A stretch of DNA of 20,363 nucleotides. It comes from a virus. Below the pieces are notes generated by a model. The model had not been told where the DNA came from. It saw only the letters and a program-made list of their open reading frames with translations, and searched no databases. A program made the position numbers and the translations under genes. The stretch lies in the IMG/VR virus record IMGVR_UViG_3300030102_000166, positions 1-20,363 of that record; one strand, 5' to 3'. This document shows positions 2,468-9,400 of the stretch, in pieces (position 1 is the first letter of the stretch; each line of letters opens with the position of its first letter).

Positions 2468-2802
2468 GACACGAGGCGTACATGAAGATGAAAGCAGAAG
2501 AAGAGAGCATGGCTAGCCTGCAAGGCAAAGCAAATGCTGCTTGGGCGGCTGATGAAGAGAAACTGCTAGACAGCTATTACAAAGAACAGATGGACATGGT
2601 GAACAGTCCGCCGCACTACAATCAAGCAGGGATTGAGTGCATAGATGCTATCCGCGCTGCTACAGGCGACGGGTACGAATATTACCTGCAAGGAAACATC
2701 ATCAAATACCTGTGGCGGTATCGTTACAAGAACGGCGTACAGGATTTGAAAAAGGCACAGTGGTATTTAGACAGGCTTATTGAGGAGAAAGAAGATGAAT
2801 AA
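2464..2802 (+). CDS. DUF3310 (SaV-like) phage protein
   Basis: Residues about 46-107 carry the typical DUF3310 pattern: VNSPPHYNQAGIECIDAI, then NIIKYLWRYRYKNG and DLKKAQWYLDRLIEE. This small domain is widespread in phages, often next to nucleotide-metabolism genes, and has no established biochemical role. The N-terminal 45 residues are a charged helical extension. I chose TTG 2464 because it forms a 4-base overlap with the MazG stop, like other joins in this operon, and has ggag 7 bases upstream. ATG 2482, preceded by gagg, is a reasonable alternative. The end overlaps the reductase start by 8 bases. Confidence 0.85.
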   Translation: MRHEAYMKMKAEEESMASLQGKANAAWAADEEKLLDSYYKEQMDMVNSPPHYNQAGIECIDAIRAATGDGYEYYLQGNIIKYLWRYRYKNGVQDLKKAQWYLDRLIEEKEDE

Positions 2803-4723
2803 TATGCTGCCCACACCCTATCAACAATTCATACACAAGTCTCGCTACGCACGTTGGCTTGATGACGAACAGCGCCGCGAGAATTGGGATGAAACAGTGT
2901 CCCGCTACACTAACTTCATGCGTGATCATCTCAAGGACAAGCACGACTACAGCATGAACGACAGCGACCTTGCAGAGATTGAGAATGCTATTCTTGATCT
3001 TGAAGTTATGCCTTCTATGAGGGCTATGATGACTGCAGGAGATGCGCTAGCTCGTGACAATATTTGTGGATACAACTGCAGCTACATCCCTGTAGATCAT
3101 CCTCGTGCTTTTGACGAGTGCATGTACATCCTCATGTGCGGCACTGGCGTGGGCTTCTCTGTCGAGCGTGAGAACGTGGACAAGCTGCCGGTAATTAGTG
3201 ACGGTATGCACGACACAGACACAGTGATCAAAGTTGGTGACTCCAAGCCGGGGTGGGCCAAGTCGTTACGTGAACTCATTGGTCTTCTTTACGTTGGTCA
3301 AATACCAAAGTGGGACTTGTCGTCGGTACGTGCGTCGGGTGAACGCTTGAAGACTATGGGTGGACGAGCTTCCGGTCCCGGACCACTGAATGACCTCTTT
3401 GTATTTGCAGTAGAGATGTTCAAAAAGGCGCAGGGCCGTCGCTTGTTCCCGATTGAGTGTCACGATCTCATGTGTAAGATCGGTGAGATTGTAGTTGTAG
3501 GCGGCGTACGTCGCTCTGCCTTGATCTCCTTGTCTAACCTCAATGACGATCAGATGGCACACGCCAAGTCCGGTGCATGGTGGGAGAATGAAGGCCAACG
3601 TGCGCTGGCTAACAACTCTGTTGCTTACAAAGGCAAACCGGAGATGGGTACATTTATGCGCGAATGGCTGGCTCTGTACGACTCTAAGTCGGGAGAGCGG
3701 GGTATGTTCAACCGAGATGCTGCCGACAAGCAGGTAGCCCGTAACGGACGTCGTGAAACAGGACACATGTGGGGCACCAACCCTTGCAGTGAGATTATCC
3801 TGCGTCCGTATCAGTTCTGCAATTTGTCAGAGGTTGTAGTACGAGAGGCAGATAGCCTAGAAGACCTCAAGCGCAAGGTTCGTGTCGCTACTATCCTCGG
3901 CACGATACAATCTACTCTCACTGATTTCAAGTATCTGAGGAAGGTATGGAAGACAAACACAGAAGAAGAACGCTTGTTGGGCGTATCCTTAACTGGTATC
4001 ATGGATCATCCCGTGCTTTCAAAAACAATAGACTCGGTTCGTTGGTTAGAAGAAATGCGCGAAGTAGCCGTACAGGTGAACAAGGATTTTGCAAAACTCC
4101 TTGGAATCCCACAGTCGGCTGCTATCACTTGTGTAAAACCGTCGGGCACTGTGTCTCAACTGGTGGACGCCGCAAGCGGAATTCACGCTCGTCATAATGA
4201 TTACTACATCCGTACGGTTCGTGGTGATAACAAAGACCCCTTGACACAGTTCCTCAAAGAACAGGGCGTGTACAGCGAGGCTTGCGTGATGAAGCCGGAT
4301 TCGACCACTGTGTTCTCTTTTGCCATGCAGTCTCCGGAAGGTGCGGTAACAAGAACACAGATGACAGCTATCCAACAGCTAGAGTTGTGGAAGGTATATG
4401 CCGTACACTGGTGTGAACACAAGCCTTCTGTCACGATCAGCGTCAAGGAAGACGAGTGGATGGGTGTAGGTTCTTGGGTGTATGACAACTTCGAAATCGC
4501 ATCCGGCGTATCCTTCTTGCCTCACTCGGATCACACGTATCAACAGGCTCCGTATCAAGACATAGAGGCTGACGACTACGTAGAGTGGCAGCTAGAGAGA
4601 GGCGGAATACAAGTTGATTGGGATATTCTTTCGGAGTATGAGAAAGAAGACAACACTACGGGATCACGCGAACTAGCGTGTACTGCAGGGGTGTGTGAAG
4701 TAGTTGACTTGAATGCAGCATAA
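2795..4723 (+). CDS. nrdJ: Class II (adenosylcobalamin-dependent) ribonucleotide reductase
   Basis: A 642-residue reductase that makes deoxyribonucleotides using a cobalamin-generated thiyl radical, so it works with or without oxygen. From ATG 2795 the key residues are Cys95 (YNCSYI), radical Cys331 and Glu333 in NPCSEI, Cys342 (FCNLSEV), and a C-terminal redox pair Cys629/Cys634 (ACTAGVCEV). This is the arrangement of the monomeric Lactobacillus leichmannii triphosphate reductase (Cys119, 408, 419, 731, 736). The PSGT motif (449-452) is also present. It is about 100 residues shorter than the 739-residue L. leichmannii enzyme. ATG 2795 follows ggagaaag closely; the upstream TTG 2780 is less likely. 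No small subunit or activase gene is nearby, as expected for class II. The host or environment must supply cobalamin. Confidence 0.93.
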   Translation: MNNMLPTPYQQFIHKSRYARWLDDEQRRENWDETVSRYTNFMRDHLKDKHDYSMNDSDLAEIENAILDLEVMPSMRAMMTAGDALARDNICGYNCSYIPVDHPRAFDECMYILMCGTGVGFSVERENVDKLPVISDGMHDTDTVIKVGDSKPGWAKSLRELIGLLYVGQIPKWDLSSVRASGERLKTMGGRASGPGPLNDLFVFAVEMFKKAQGRRLFPIECHDLMCKIGEIVVVGGVRRSALISLSNLNDDQMAHAKSGAWWENEGQRALANNSVAYKGKPEMGTFMREWLALYDSKSGERGMFNRDAADKQVARNGRRETGHMWGTNPCSEIILRPYQFCNLSEVVVREADSLEDLKRKVRVATILGTIQSTLTDFKYLRKVWKTNTEEERLLGVSLTGIMDHPVLSKTIDSVRWLEEMREVAVQVNKDFAKLLGIPQSAAITCVKPSGTVSQLVDAASGIHARHNDYYIRTVRGDNKDPLTQFLKEQGVYSEACVMKPDSTTVFSFAMQSPEGAVTRTQMTAIQQLELWKVYAVHWCEHKPSVTISVKEDEWMGVGSWVYDNFEIASGVSFLPHSDHTYQQAPYQDIEADDYVEWQLERGGIQVDWDILSEYEKEDNTTGSRELACTAGVCEVVDLNAA

Positions 4724-4734
4724 AGGAGATCGCC

Positions 4735-5334
4735 GTGGCGGTACTGAATGACTACAAAGAAATTCAAACAATAGACAACTTCCTTTCAAAAGAAGATTGT
4801 CAAGCAGCAATCCAGCACATAGATCGTCTGATAGAAGGTGGATTCGCTCTTGAGGTGAACGCAAACCCTGACAGAGAGGACGAGTGCATTCATTTCACAT
4901 CGGCTCATGTAACAAATGCCAGTGGGATGTTAATATGGCATAGTTTTATGCACAAGTTCTACAACGAAGCTCTACAAGACTACATGTCTAGATTCCCAAT
5001 ACTAAAGATCAAGCGATTGGGTATATTAGAGGGTAAGGCGCAGAGGACAAAAGCGGGTGGCGGTTTTCATAACTGGCATTACGAATCGTTTGATAATACA
5101 ACCTCTGAAAGAATCCTAGCGTGGACGGTGTACTTGAATGATGACTTTGAGGGCGGTGAAACAGAATTTCTAAATCAGAATATGAGAGTCCAACCTGTTG
5201 CAGGTAGGTTCTCTATGTTTCCTACTAGCTTTTTACACACTCACAGAGGTAACCCCCCTATCTCCGGAACTAAGTATATACTGACAGGATGGGTGGTTGA
5301 CCTTGATCCATATGCAAGTATGATGTCCTCATGA
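4735..5334 (+). CDS. 2-oxoglutarate/Fe(II)-dependent oxygenase, prolyl-4-hydroxylase-like
   Basis: A 199-residue double-stranded beta-helix oxygenase. The probable iron ligands are His115 and Glu117 (FHNWHYESF) and distal His170 (HTHRGNPP). Lys180 (SGTKYI), ten residues on, should bind 2-oxoglutarate, the same spacing as His483/Lys493 in human collagen prolyl hydroxylase. The middle motif FEGGETEF is typical of the phage and prolyl-4-hydroxylase branch. The first facial motif is HxE rather than the usual HxD. GTG 4735 is well placed 6 bases after aaaggag (4722-4728), 11 bases after the reductase stop. These enzymes are frequent in marine phages. The target, whether a protein side chain or modified DNA base, cannot be read from the sequence. 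Its stop overlaps a small ORF in an ATGA. Confidence 0.9.
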   Translation: MAVLNDYKEIQTIDNFLSKEDCQAAIQHIDRLIEGGFALEVNANPDREDECIHFTSAHVTNASGMLIWHSFMHKFYNEALQDYMSRFPILKIKRLGILEGKAQRTKAGGGFHNWHYESFDNTTSERILAWTVYLNDDFEGGETEFLNQNMRVQPVAGRFSMFPTSFLHTHRGNPPISGTKYILTGWVVDLDPYASMMSS

Positions 5335-5480
5335 AGAAGACAAATAAAAAGCCACCCCTCGCATGGAAGCGGGGGGATGGCTGGATTCAATTCACTCCCC
5401 CTCGCCATCATCCTTGTTATAAGGAATGGCAACAGAAGAAGGAAAAAGAAGAGTATGATTCCAGTAAAGATCACAGATGA
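5331..5480 (+). CDS. Small hypothetical protein, 49 residues
   Basis: ATG 5331 forms an ATGA overlap with the oxygenase stop, and the frame runs 49 codons to TGA 5478-5480, overlapping the next gene by 26 bases. The product is Lys-rich at both ends with an aromatic core (WKRGDGWIQFTPPRHHP), which looks like real protein rather than random translation. It would fill the otherwise empty 120 bases between its neighbours. A leftward terminator hairpin lies within its first third, so the region would have two uses if the gene is real. Function unknown. Confidence 0.5.
   Translation: MKKTNKKPPLAWKRGDGWIQFTPPRHHPCYKEWQQKKEKEEYDSSKDHR
5342..5382 (-). terminator. Rho-independent terminator for the leftward (late) transcript
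   Basis: Read on the - strand, a GC-rich stem (arms 5369-5382 and 5350-5362, 13-14 bases, one A/C mismatch, one G-T pair and one bulged base) closes a 6-base loop. It is followed at once by TTTTTATTTG. This is a textbook intrinsic terminator for transcription coming from the right. The + strand side has no T-run after the hairpin, so it should not stop the rightward operon. It sits inside the rightward operon, about 0.93 kb past the end of the last leftward gene (6314). Confidence 0.78.
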
Positions 5481-6009
5481 AATGTTCTTGAAGGCCCGTC
5501 AGAAAAACAGTGAGATGGGACTTCTACGTAACTCTATCATCAAAGGCAACGGCAGCATTGCAGGGTTTCTCGGTGAACAGATTGTACTGCAAGTTCTTGG
5601 GGGAGAGTGGGCTAATACCTACGAATACGATGTCGTTTTAGAAAACGGCTTGAAGGTAGAAGTCAAAACAAAGCAGACCACTGTCGTGCCAAAGCCGGAC
5701 TACTCATGCTCTATATCAAACTTCAACACGCATCAGCAATGCGATATCTACGCATTTACGCGAGTGATGAAGGACTATTCAGTGGGATGGTATCTTGGAT
5801 ACTGCACACCCAAGGAGTATTTCGACAAAGCCACTTTCGTGAAGAAGGGTGACTTCGATCCTTCTAACAACTGGACGTCTCATGCTGACTGCTACAACCT
5901 ACCTATAGAGGAGTTGCACAATGTTCAAGGCGTTGGTAATGCTATGCTCTCTTCAAGTGCCGGACTTGTGTCTGACGTTCGAGGACACGATAAGGCTGCG
6001 AGAGACTGA
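5455..6009 (+). CDS. PD-(D/E)XK nuclease-like protein of unknown role
   Basis: A 184-residue protein whose N-terminal half has the order expected of a restriction-endonuclease-like fold: GFLGEQI with Glu41, then YEYDVVLENG with Asp59, then VEVKTKQ with Glu69 and Lys71. A Cys-containing C-terminal half (SCSISN, GYCTPKEYF, ADCYNLP) follows. It could be an active nuclease or a DNA-binding relative. I chose ATG 5455; the frame is open up to ATG 5377, but that adds a 26-residue Arg/Lys-rich stretch lying over the terminator and the small upstream ORF. Its last 89 bases overlap the next gene in another frame, an unusually long overlap for this phage. The fold is inferred from motif spacing only. 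Confidence 0.72.
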   Translation: MIPVKITDEMFLKARQKNSEMGLLRNSIIKGNGSIAGFLGEQIVLQVLGGEWANTYEYDVVLENGLKVEVKTKQTTVVPKPDYSCSISNFNTHQQCDIYAFTRVMKDYSVGWYLGYCTPKEYFDKATFVKKGDFDPSNNWTSHADCYNLPIEELHNVQGVGNAMLSSSAGLVSDVRGHDKAARD

Positions 6010-6124
6010 AGAAGAATGTAAAGAGAGGGCTATGGAAATGGTGAGGGCCATAGTGACTGTGCGTGTGCCTGTTCCACCACCCTACACGCTGCACTATAAG
6101 TGCGAACAGGAACCATCAATATGA
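5921..6124 (+). CDS. Small Cys-containing hypothetical protein, 67 residues
   Basis: ATG 5921 follows gaggag (5908-5913) by 7 bases, a strong binding site, which supports a real gene despite the 89-base overlap with its upstream neighbour. The protein has a hydrophobic start (MFKALVMLCSLQVP), four cysteines (9, 17, 33, 61), an acidic middle with TEEEC, and a Pro-rich segment before YTLHYKC. Similar short proteins (short hydrophobic N terminus, TEEEC-like motif, terminal YxxxC) occur in marine phages as far as I recall, with no known function. The N terminus could be a weak signal or membrane-associating segment. It ends in an ATGA overlap with the next gene. Confidence 0.65.
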   Translation: MFKALVMLCSLQVPDLCLTFEDTIRLRETEEECKERAMEMVRAIVTVRVPVPPPYTLHYKCEQEPSI

Positions 6125-6333
6125 AGGCAAATCTGTTTTCTTTCCATGTGTACCTACGACAGGATGGTAACATAGAACTACAGAAAGAGTCCGTTCGTCC
6201 CGACGAACTACAAAAAGAAATGGACGCGGGAGTGCCCGATTATGACGGCGCACACTCCATCGCGTCCCTTCTTAGATACGTTAATTCAGTGACTGACGAG
6301 ATGATAGATAAGTCTAGGCAGTACGTCTCTTAG
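6121..6333 (+). CDS. Hypothetical protein, 70 residues; last gene of the rightward operon
   Basis: ATG 6121 overlaps the preceding stop by 4 bases. The protein begins MKANLFSFHVYLRQDGNI, suggesting a short beta-rich start, then turns acidic and helical toward the C terminus. No motif is recognised. The last 20 bases overlap the convergent 55-residue gene on the - strand, so the two operons meet with no spacer. I saw no terminator after it on the + strand. Confidence 0.68.
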   Translation: MKANLFSFHVYLRQDGNIELQKESVRPDELQKEMDAGVPDYDGAHSIASLLRYVNSVTDEMIDKSRQYVS

Positions 6334-6481
6334 CCATAGCCTCTTCGATCTTCTTACCTCGTGCTATCTCGTAAGATGACAGCGTACCGTCATTGTCGAG
6401 GTCAGCCTTCTCTTTGTTCTTTATCTCCGCAGAATCACCTTCTGCCTTGCGTACTTCTGCGCCTTTAGCGTACATCTTCAT
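6314..6481 (-). CDS. 55-residue protein with a single EF-hand-like calcium-binding loop
   Basis: An ORF from ATG 6481 to TAG 6314, with ggaga 6 bases ahead and a 14-base gap after the stop of the 1790-residue gene. Residues 27-38 read DLDNDGTLSSYE, a complete EF-hand loop: Asp at 1, 3 and 5, Gly at 6, Leu at 8, Ser at 9, Glu at 12. The rest is Lys/Glu-rich helix (KNKEKA before, IARGKKIEEAMAKRR after), so the loop is flanked by two helical segments like a lone EF-hand or dockerin-like half. It is the last gene of the structural operon, so it could be a small virion or assembly protein. Calcium binding is inferred from the loop; function is unknown. Confidence 0.78.
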   Translation of the reverse strand: MKMYAKGAEVRKAEGDSAEIKNKEKADLDNDGTLSSYEIARGKKIEEAMAKRRTA

Positions 6482-6495
6482 TGTTATCTCCTACT

Positions 6496-9400
6496 CTACA
6501 TCGGGAAGACTATCTCGCCTACATCGACAGGCTGCATAACGCCTAGATTGATGTAGTATTCTTCTAGGTAAGCGTTCGACTCTACATCGGCGTCCAGTAC
6601 ACCACGCGGAATCTCGTCTGCTACGTACTTCATAAGCTGTGTAGCGAAGTAGTACGCATCTTCGTCAGCCACTAGCGTTTCATCTTCTAGAAGCTGCTTC
6701 ACAATGCTTGCAGATTTTGGATCACTAAGAAGGAAGTCGAGAGACTTGCCTTTAGCCAATGCTGCGTATCTGATTGCAACCTCTGCCATGACGTATTCTT
6801 TACTGACCATGCCCCTAGCAAGGTTGAATGCCTTCGACAGAGCGTTGTCTAGTGTGAAGCCCTTCGTGACGCTTGTCAGCTTTCCGTCGGCGTTACGTGC
6901 AAGCAGATCAGATTGATTGATACGAACAGACATGCGGAACAAAGAGTGCAGGGTTTCAAGCTGTTCCGGCTGTATGCCTGCAGCATCTGCTAATCTCTTG
7001 AGTGCTACACCCTCTTTACTGCCCCCTACCAGTGCGTCGTCCAGTATGGAAAACACTTCTGCAGGATTATTATACGCGCCTGTCACAACAGTGCTGCCGT
7101 CAAACAAACGGACGGATCGATTGCTAGGCCCGTAACCGCCAAGAGTCTTGATCGTGTCTACAAACAAGGACTGCATAGCTTGGTTCTGTTGTTCCGGAGA
7201 CATGGACCGGAATGCTTTCGATGTCTGCAGTTGCTGCAGGAATACGCGGGATTGATCGGGAGCATCGCTTCCCAAGACATTCTTCAAAAAACCCTGTCCA
7301 CTGAAAGAGTCCGGCAGTTTCGCCTCTACCTTTGCCAGTTGATCCGCGCCTGCTTGTATTCTTCCTTGTGCAGTCGCTAGGTCTTCCTGTGCGTTACTTG
7401 CGATTTTGAGCAAGCCTTTATGAGCTTCCCTAAACTCCGGAATAGAGTTGACAACAACATCGATCTGACGATCTGCCATTATCAAGTCTTCCATGTCTAA
7501 GAGCTTCATCTGCTTCGGACCATCAGCCGTCTGCACCGTGATGATAGAGGCTTCTTCCATGTCGCGAAGATATCTGCGTACGTCTCCTTGATACTCCGCT
7601 GGAACTTTGATACGCTTCGGAGCGTCCCCTTCGACAAGTCCGGGTATCTGACCGTTGTCAAGAGCGTAGCGTATTCTAGACATATCGCTTGACCCGTAGA
7701 ATGAATTTCTCACTGCATTTCCTAGCAGACCTTTCATAGTTTCAAAAGTGTCTAGGTCTACGGTTCTCGTTACCATAGCTGCAATTTCTTCATCTGTGGG
7801 TGCTATAATCTTACCGTCCGGTCCTACATTTTTGACCAATCGCTGTTCCATCAAAGAGTGACTAACTGGTGCGATAGTGTTCACGATCTTGTCTATCTCG
7901 GTCTTTACCTTTGATATCGATCCTTGTCCGGGAGAGGTTACAGCCTGCACGAAGGGGTTCAGAATAAATCCTAAGTCTCGGCTGGTTGCAACATCTCCTG
8001 TCAGTTGAGCCGAAGTATCCACGGACTCTACAGTACCACCAAAGGTAGCCTTCCCTTCGAAGCGGAGTTGTTCTGCACGATACACTGTACGAGCAATAAC
8101 GACTTGATTGTACTCTTCCACACTTCCTGTTGATGTGGCCCAATTCTCGAATGCACGATCTACTTCTTGCCGTAGCTGTGAGCCTAAAGCCTGTTTGGCA
8201 GGATCATTACTACCCATCATCTTGTTGGCAGATTGACGGAAAGTCTCCAGTTCCATAGGGTTGGTCACCATTTGCAAGTCTTGTGCTGATACCTTCAGCT
8301 TGTTGTTAGGCTGCGCCATATAGTAAGCAAGCTGTAAGTCCGATATCTGTGTCGGATCAGTGACATTTAGCTCTTTTGCTGCTTTCGGATCAGACTTTAT
8401 AATTTGCTCTTTCATAAACTCTCGGAAGGATGCACCGTCTTCAAAGACTCGTCCGAATCTCTTAAACTTGGTATTGATTGCTTCTGATTTAGGACCAAAC
8501 CACATGTCGATGCTTCGTGCTGCGGCACTGTCCAAGTCGGTGAAGAGGCGTTCCCCCGTCCTTCCCCCCAACGCTTTAAGAGTGCTAGGATTGACAAACG
8601 AAAGGAAGGATGCGTTCTTATCTTCCGCGTATGTCCGGAACATCCTGTCTAGGCTGTTTCCGAAAGATACAATCGGGATGGTAATGTCGGTAGACACGCC
8701 CTTGTAAGCGTCCTCAATTATGAGATCACTGTTTGTGCGCTCTAGTTTGACAACTTGTTGAATCATTTTGCTTTGATTTGCAGACACTTGGGTGGCAGTC
8801 TGTGTAGGACGACCTTTATCCAGTGCTTTTACAGACGCATCGCGGATCATAGCTACTGCCGCTGAAAGTCTGTCTTCTACAACTTCGATCTTTCTGCGAT
8901 CAGCAAGCTGTTTAGATGTAAGCTCCACAAAGTCAGAAGCCTTTTCTGCAGGTGTATCGGCCACGCCTGCACCTTCTCGTGCAGCACTCTGCGCCCTACG
9001 TTCTGAAAGGGCAATCCTAGAAAGCAGTAAGTCGAGTTCGCCCGATACAAATGCTTGGTCGAGAAACTTCGCATTTTCCGGCTGGGTCAAATCATCAATA
9101 GTTTGTGCAGCGTCTCTCGCGTCCGCAGTAAGCAGTTCATCAAGCTGTCTGCGTCCCTCTGTAGCAGCTTTTCTAAACTGACCAGCAAAAGTGTCTAGGT
9201 TCTCTATTGCCACCTGCCTAGCCAGCTTCTCGCCTTCAGACAGCATACTCAAATCTTCCGATTTCAACTGCATGATCTGTGCATCTAGAAGTTCAGATGC
9301 TGCAGCCATGCCTGCTACTTGCTTTTCGCTGGACTTCTGAATCTTTATGCCTTCTGATACCTTCCTCTTGAAGTTCATCAGTGCGCCCATAAGGACGCCG

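Follow-up and report, generated by a model that had tools for sequence, protein, structure and literature searches.

TransTermHP extends its terminator search 500 nt into the neighbouring convergent gene (PMC1852404), and overlapping convergent transcripts are already known (PMC7154746). HMO-2011-type phages are placed among the most abundant viral groups in the sea (PMC9038755); we found no description of terminators in these phages, and the word is absent from the main genome paper (PMC9038755). We scored terminators with a measure of the d'Aubenton-Carafa type (d), which combines fold energy per base with a decaying sum over the T-run and was calibrated on E. coli, from which the phage's host may differ. 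By this measure, five HMO-2011-type records of approximately 50 kb each (HMO-2011, MW202701, CRP-2, CRP-603 and CRP-207; L228-L232) carry a terminator on both strands in the gap between their convergent genes (d 25.6-64.9), with zero to two other matches of d > 12 per strand. The gap is thus the expected end of the leftward operon, since the scan places a terminator there in all five records and almost none elsewhere. An extra leftward terminator (- strand) was noted midway through the structural block, close to the gene for the coat protein, in three of the five (L228 30799, L229 27870 and L232 35108).

The window considered here, that is, the whole stretch of 20,363 nucleotides analysed (part of the 24.9 kb of IMG/VR record IMGVR_UViG_3300030102_000166), derives from a virus of this type. 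Its B12-dependent ribonucleotide reductase (RNR) and the HMO-2011 enzyme share 69.5% identity, and the window also has endonuclease I, MazG and the same convergent layout, in which replication genes on one strand converge on a leftward structural block. A DNA search of phage records returned a single matching region, the 2OG-oxygenase gene, in Synechococcus phages, while the small ORF and the last + strand gene discussed below had no match among named phage records.

At the junction itself (Table 1) the convergent gene ends overlap by 20 nt, and there is therefore no terminator-sized gap; the window scan gave no terminator match at 6314-6333. No rightward (+ strand) terminator was found between 6251 and 9500, where the best d was -1.8. 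Near the junction, + strand terminators with d ≥ 20 were also lacking in L070-L077; in several other gapless relatives they are embedded in the last leftward gene. In the window that gene (6314-6481) had no Pfam or PHROGs match; its DLDNDGTLSSYE resembles an EF-hand or dockerin calcium loop. Neither Pfam nor PHROG matched the nuclease-like gene (5455-6009).

Table 1. Features of the convergent region, in window coordinates.
Feature	Position	Strand	Remarks
B12-dependent RNR gene	2780-4723	+	phrog_367; 69.5% identical to phage HMO-2011
2OG-Fe(II) oxygenase gene	4735-5334	+	PF13640, E = 6e-15
Conserved small protein gene, 49 aa	5331-5480	+	WKRGDGW..P...HPCY.EW; early codons KPPLA...KRGDG form the stem
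U-tract TTTTTATTT after distal stem	5342-5350	-	Read on the + strand as the Lys-codon run of the small ORF
Distal embedded leftward terminator stem-loop, putative	5351-5381	-	11 bp, 6-nt loop; d = 42.5
Nuclease-like gene, 184 aa	5455-6009	+	Function by inference only; 36 related viral loci
Small gene, 67 aa	5921-6124	+	Weak phrog_29498 match, E = 4e-4
Last + strand gene, 70 aa	6121-6333	+	Proximal terminator host; codon identity 0.76 at stem codons, 0.45 upstream
U-tract TTTCTTTTT of proximal candidate	6212-6220	-	CAA AAA GAA codons almost invariant
Proximal embedded leftward terminator stem, candidate	6222-6267	-	d = 24.9; 47 nt past last leftward stop codon
Convergent junction	6314-6333		Stop codons end at 6333 (last + gene) and 6314 (last - gene); 20-nt overlap of the two genes
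Last leftward gene, 55 aa	6314-6481	-	Also in L112 and L116; 50 aa in L119

The distal hairpin and its host gene

Within the + strand operon, the - strand forms a G+C-rich stem of 11 pairs with a 6-nt loop (RNA GCCAUCCCCCCGCUUCCAUGCGAGGGGUGGC; the strand reads GCCATCCCCCCGCTTCCATGCGAGGGGTGGC from 5381 to 5351, then TTTTTATTTGTCTTC), and TTTTTATTT stands directly 3' of this stem at 5350-5342. The 61-nt stretch containing it folds at -21.5 kcal/mol on the - strand (z = -4.0 for fold energy). When both strands of the whole window were scored, this site gave the highest d of either strand. Dinucleotide shuffling gave no d above 22.5 in 26 strands of 20.4 kb, and a d of 20 was reached at 0.19 sites per strand; the hairpin is a real signal, far above chance, because its own d is 42.5. 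Only two - strand sites in 20 kb have d > 0 (42.5 and 24.9), and both lie within approximately 1 kb past the last leftward gene. A simpler scanner, which returned 24 terminator-like sites against 17.4 expected and in which the 5352-5372 stem was unremarkable, was replaced by the fold-energy and T-run score. An Rfam search of 4200-7000 gave no family at E ≤ 1.

The initial annotation had read the hairpin at 5342-5382 as the stop of the structural operon, lying about 0.93 kb past that operon's last gene and inside the + strand operon. The position is borne out, the hairpin starting 933 nt from the last leftward stop codon (6314) and falling within the ORF at 5331-5480, and it is very probably a leftward terminator for the structural operon. 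It had also been called the only clear intrinsic terminator, a description which has to be withdrawn because the - strand has another candidate at 6222-6267, with d = 24.9 and a distance of just 47 nt from the stop codon at 6314. We consider it likely that the 5351 hairpin is a leftward intrinsic terminator carried in the codons of a + strand gene, and that in a tandem pair it is the distal one and acts as a fail-safe.

As had been proposed, the stem is also read, in frame, as codons of the 49-residue ORF. A scan of viral contigs confirmed relatives of the small protein at 295 viral loci, with 16 invariant columns and the family pattern W-K-x-x-x-G-W-x-Q...P...H-P-C-Y-x-E-W; to judge by this conservation, the 49-codon ORF is a genuine conserved phage protein gene. 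Its Lys codons, read on the opposite strand, give the T-run, and its PPLA and KRGDG codons supply the two stem arms; the bases therefore serve two uses.

Conservation was followed among relatives whose small protein has the N-terminus KKKPPL or one close to it (the KKKPPL clade), which share ancestry, so that the conservation and recoding tests are not independent. The distal stem and T-run are present in every clade member examined (d 24.8-52.3), and AAAAA precedes the stem on the + strand in all members listed. Paired changes preserve the stem in L074, where an A-U pair has become G-C at two synonymous sites, and in L077, where C-G has become U-A. Four further members (L079, L080, L096 and L190) pair through a register shifted along the other arm, with 9-10 pairs on the - strand versus 7-8 on the + strand. 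The initial annotation's suggestion that relatives be checked for the stem, its paired changes and the T-run thus has a mixed answer, affirmative across the clade but negative in more distant relatives, which have the same small protein without the KKKPPL N-terminus and without the hairpin.

That restriction may be read differently. A Lys-rich N-terminus yields a T-run on the opposite strand, and the C- and G-rich codons of PPL and KRGDGW might pair by chance, leaving termination unselected. The protein sequence does itself favour a hairpin, with d ≥ 20 in 9-21% of synonymous codings, and only the KKKPPL clade has the stem. However, the actual codings fall in the top 0.25-9% in each of nine members, the extremes being the window (1/400, 0.25%) and L190 (36/400, 9%), and the stem outlasts both register shift and paired changes. 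The antisense background is also low, no + strand site with d ≥ 20 occurring inside the leftward structural region of the five HMO-2011-type stretches of approximately 50 kb, and the pattern recurs in unrelated genes whose protein does not favour a hairpin. We regard a coincidence of coding as unlikely.

The proximal hairpin and the junctions of relatives

The stem of the proximal candidate is followed on the - strand by a one-base spacer and then by TTTCTTTTT. This hairpin also occurs in many relatives without the 5351 stem and is more widely kept than the distal one. In an alignment of 27 distinct homologues of its host, the last + strand gene, identity at degenerate codons is 0.45 over codons 1-27, rises to 0.76 over codons 34-49, which form the stem, and is 0.58 thereafter. 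Several codons are frozen, namely GCG (27/27), GCA (25/25), GAC (27/27), GTG (24/24), CAA (27/27) and GAA (27/27); the A-run codons CAA, AAA and GAA are found in 27/27, 20/22 and 27/27, respectively, while several codons of the bulge and loop are variable. The hairpin's score was matched by none of 400 synonymous recodings in each of four lineages. On these codon comparisons, the proximal stem appears as a clear block of synonymous constraint.

We surveyed the convergent junctions of 46 lineage clusters of metagenomic viral contigs, applying a gap cut-off of 24 nt; gene calls were automatic, and one missed or spurious small ORF alters a gap length. Where the gap measured at least 24 nt, a terminator was located in it in 17 of 21 clusters. 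Embedded terminators occurred in 21 of the 25 clusters with gaps below 24 nt, whose stops abut or overlap, versus 5 of the 21 with a gap (Fisher P = 7e-5, for cluster sequences that are related and so not independent, and with the embedded half of the 2x2 test carrying the argument, as the in-gap half is partly definitional, an absent gap being unable to host a hairpin). On the - strand, hairpins thin out with distance, ten distinct ones lying 0.5-1 kb past the junction versus one at 2-4 kb, and the distance of the embedded terminator varies by lineage from 71 to 1119 nt.

Dual coding is also found in three or more further families embedded on the - strand and in one on the + strand, whose scores were matched by 0-14 of 400 recodings (top 0-3.5%). 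Their hosts are a nuclease paralogue, other + strand genes and, for the + strand terminators, the Lys-rich last leftward gene. In the nuclease paralogue, the terminator in RAKKKAATVGN codons was matched by 0-1 of 400 synonymous codings. On such figures, the codons at embedded terminators are chosen well beyond the protein's needs.

Two of these arrangements may be described further. In L133 (approximately 3100-3140), L132, L147, L181 and L190, the - strand terminator within the RAKKKAATVGN codons of the nuclease paralogue takes the form GCTGCCCTGTAGAT..CTACAGTGGCAGC TTTCTTTTT. In L079, L081-L084, L132-L136, L147 and L190, + strand terminators of the CCCCGC...GCGGGG TTTTTCTTTTTGG type lie at a depth of 160-360 nt within the last leftward gene, which is Lys-rich, a mirror image of the embedding seen on the - strand.

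Order of use and antisense transcription

Our preferred reading, a tandem pair of embedded leftward terminators, would operate as follows. As the ends of the two operons overlap without a gap, RNA polymerase leaving the leftward structural operon would pass the last stop codon (6314) and enter the opposing operon. It would be stopped first at the proximal hairpin (6267-6222), inside the last + strand gene, and any polymerase reading through would be caught at 5381-5342, a little short of the genes for the 2OG oxygenase and RNR, where antisense transcription would end. The analysis itself shows the two structures with their scores, their conservation and dual coding, and the exchange of gap for embedded terminators among relatives; from these we infer that the hairpins terminate transcription in the host, that they are used in this order and that the distal one insulates.

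The initial annotation had predicted a long antisense tail on late transcripts, which could switch off metabolic genes late in infection. Read-through RNA would indeed oppose the genes at 5455-6009, 5921-6124 and 6121-6333. The long tail would, however, belong to read-through only and not to most late transcripts, because a nearer candidate stop exists at 6222-6267. The metabolic target is not supported: the tail would cover the nuclease-like gene and two small genes, while RNR and the 2OG oxygenase lie upstream of 5342, beyond the distal stop, and would thus be shielded rather than silenced.

An antisense switch could nevertheless be regulated in the manner of an excludon, a far-placed terminator giving late transcripts a tail that represses the last + strand genes late in infection. 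Convergent overlapping transcripts with mutual repression are known (PMC7154746), and in relatives the embedded - strand terminators are often found 0.4-1.1 kb beyond the junction, farther than ending an operon needs. Yet the nearer candidate would cut off most of the tail, the protected side is where the RNR and oxygenase genes sit, and the distance depends on lineage. We think such a switch improbable; regulated silencing of the nuclease-like gene and the two small genes next to it, while conceivable, finds no support of its own here. A broader version, in which the tandem embedded terminators of gapless HMO-2011-type phages would set a chosen late antisense overlap, so that rising structural transcription shuts the last early-block genes as a codon-encoded excludon-type timer, is likewise speculative and in our view doubtful.

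Least probable is that the + strand RNA hairpin is the functional element, shielding the RNR-2OG oxygenase message at its 3' end or modulating translation of the small ORF or nuclease: the window's stem is somewhat stronger as + strand RNA (12 pairs versus 11; -25.4 versus -21.5 kcal/mol over 61 nt) and stands just past the oxygenase stop codon, but the window is an exception, the - strand fold being stronger in six of eight distinct family members (up to 10 versus 7 pairs when register-shifted), the - strand T-run, on this account incidental, is always kept, and the hairpin is located within a translated + strand ORF.

Comparison with known terminators and overlapping transcripts

The exchange of gap for embedded terminators among these phages offers an evolutionary test, in which a compact genome without room for a terminator moves the stop signal into the codons of the opposing gene and synonymous sites pay for it. 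Terminator prediction confined to intergenic sequence would miss such sites, and codon conservation at them should not be taken as protein constraint alone.

In its parts, the distal hairpin resembles a Rho-independent terminator: it has a G+C-rich stem, a 6-nt loop and an immediate U-tract, lies downstream of an operon and scores well above shuffled sequence. It differs in that its host is a translated gene belonging to the opposing operon, in its distance of 0.93 kb from the last leftward gene, and in having a second embedded candidate before it. The bidirectional gap terminators of HMO-2011, CRP-2, CRP-603, CRP-207 and MW202701 serve the same convergent junction in the same phage group, whereas the distal hairpin lies inside 5331-5480 rather than in a gap and is one-directional: the + strand letters after the stem are TGGATTCAATTC, which is no T-run, and no + strand site there has d > 0. 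Relatives use separate embedded hairpins for the two directions.

The predicted antisense overlap, with no terminator between the convergent genes, recalls excludons and overlapping 3' UTRs (PMC7154746), although here putative terminators inside the opposing genes would limit the overlap. The closest precedent in method is the treatment of tail-to-tail regions by TransTermHP, which already allows for bacterial terminators overlapping an opposing gene (PMC1852404). What differs here is that embedding forms a lineage-wide alternative to gap terminators, carries measured synonymous constraint and reaches up to 1.1 kb away, and as far as our literature search reaches, the repeated substitution of terminators written in codons for those in gaps, across a whole lineage, is a new form of a familiar arrangement.
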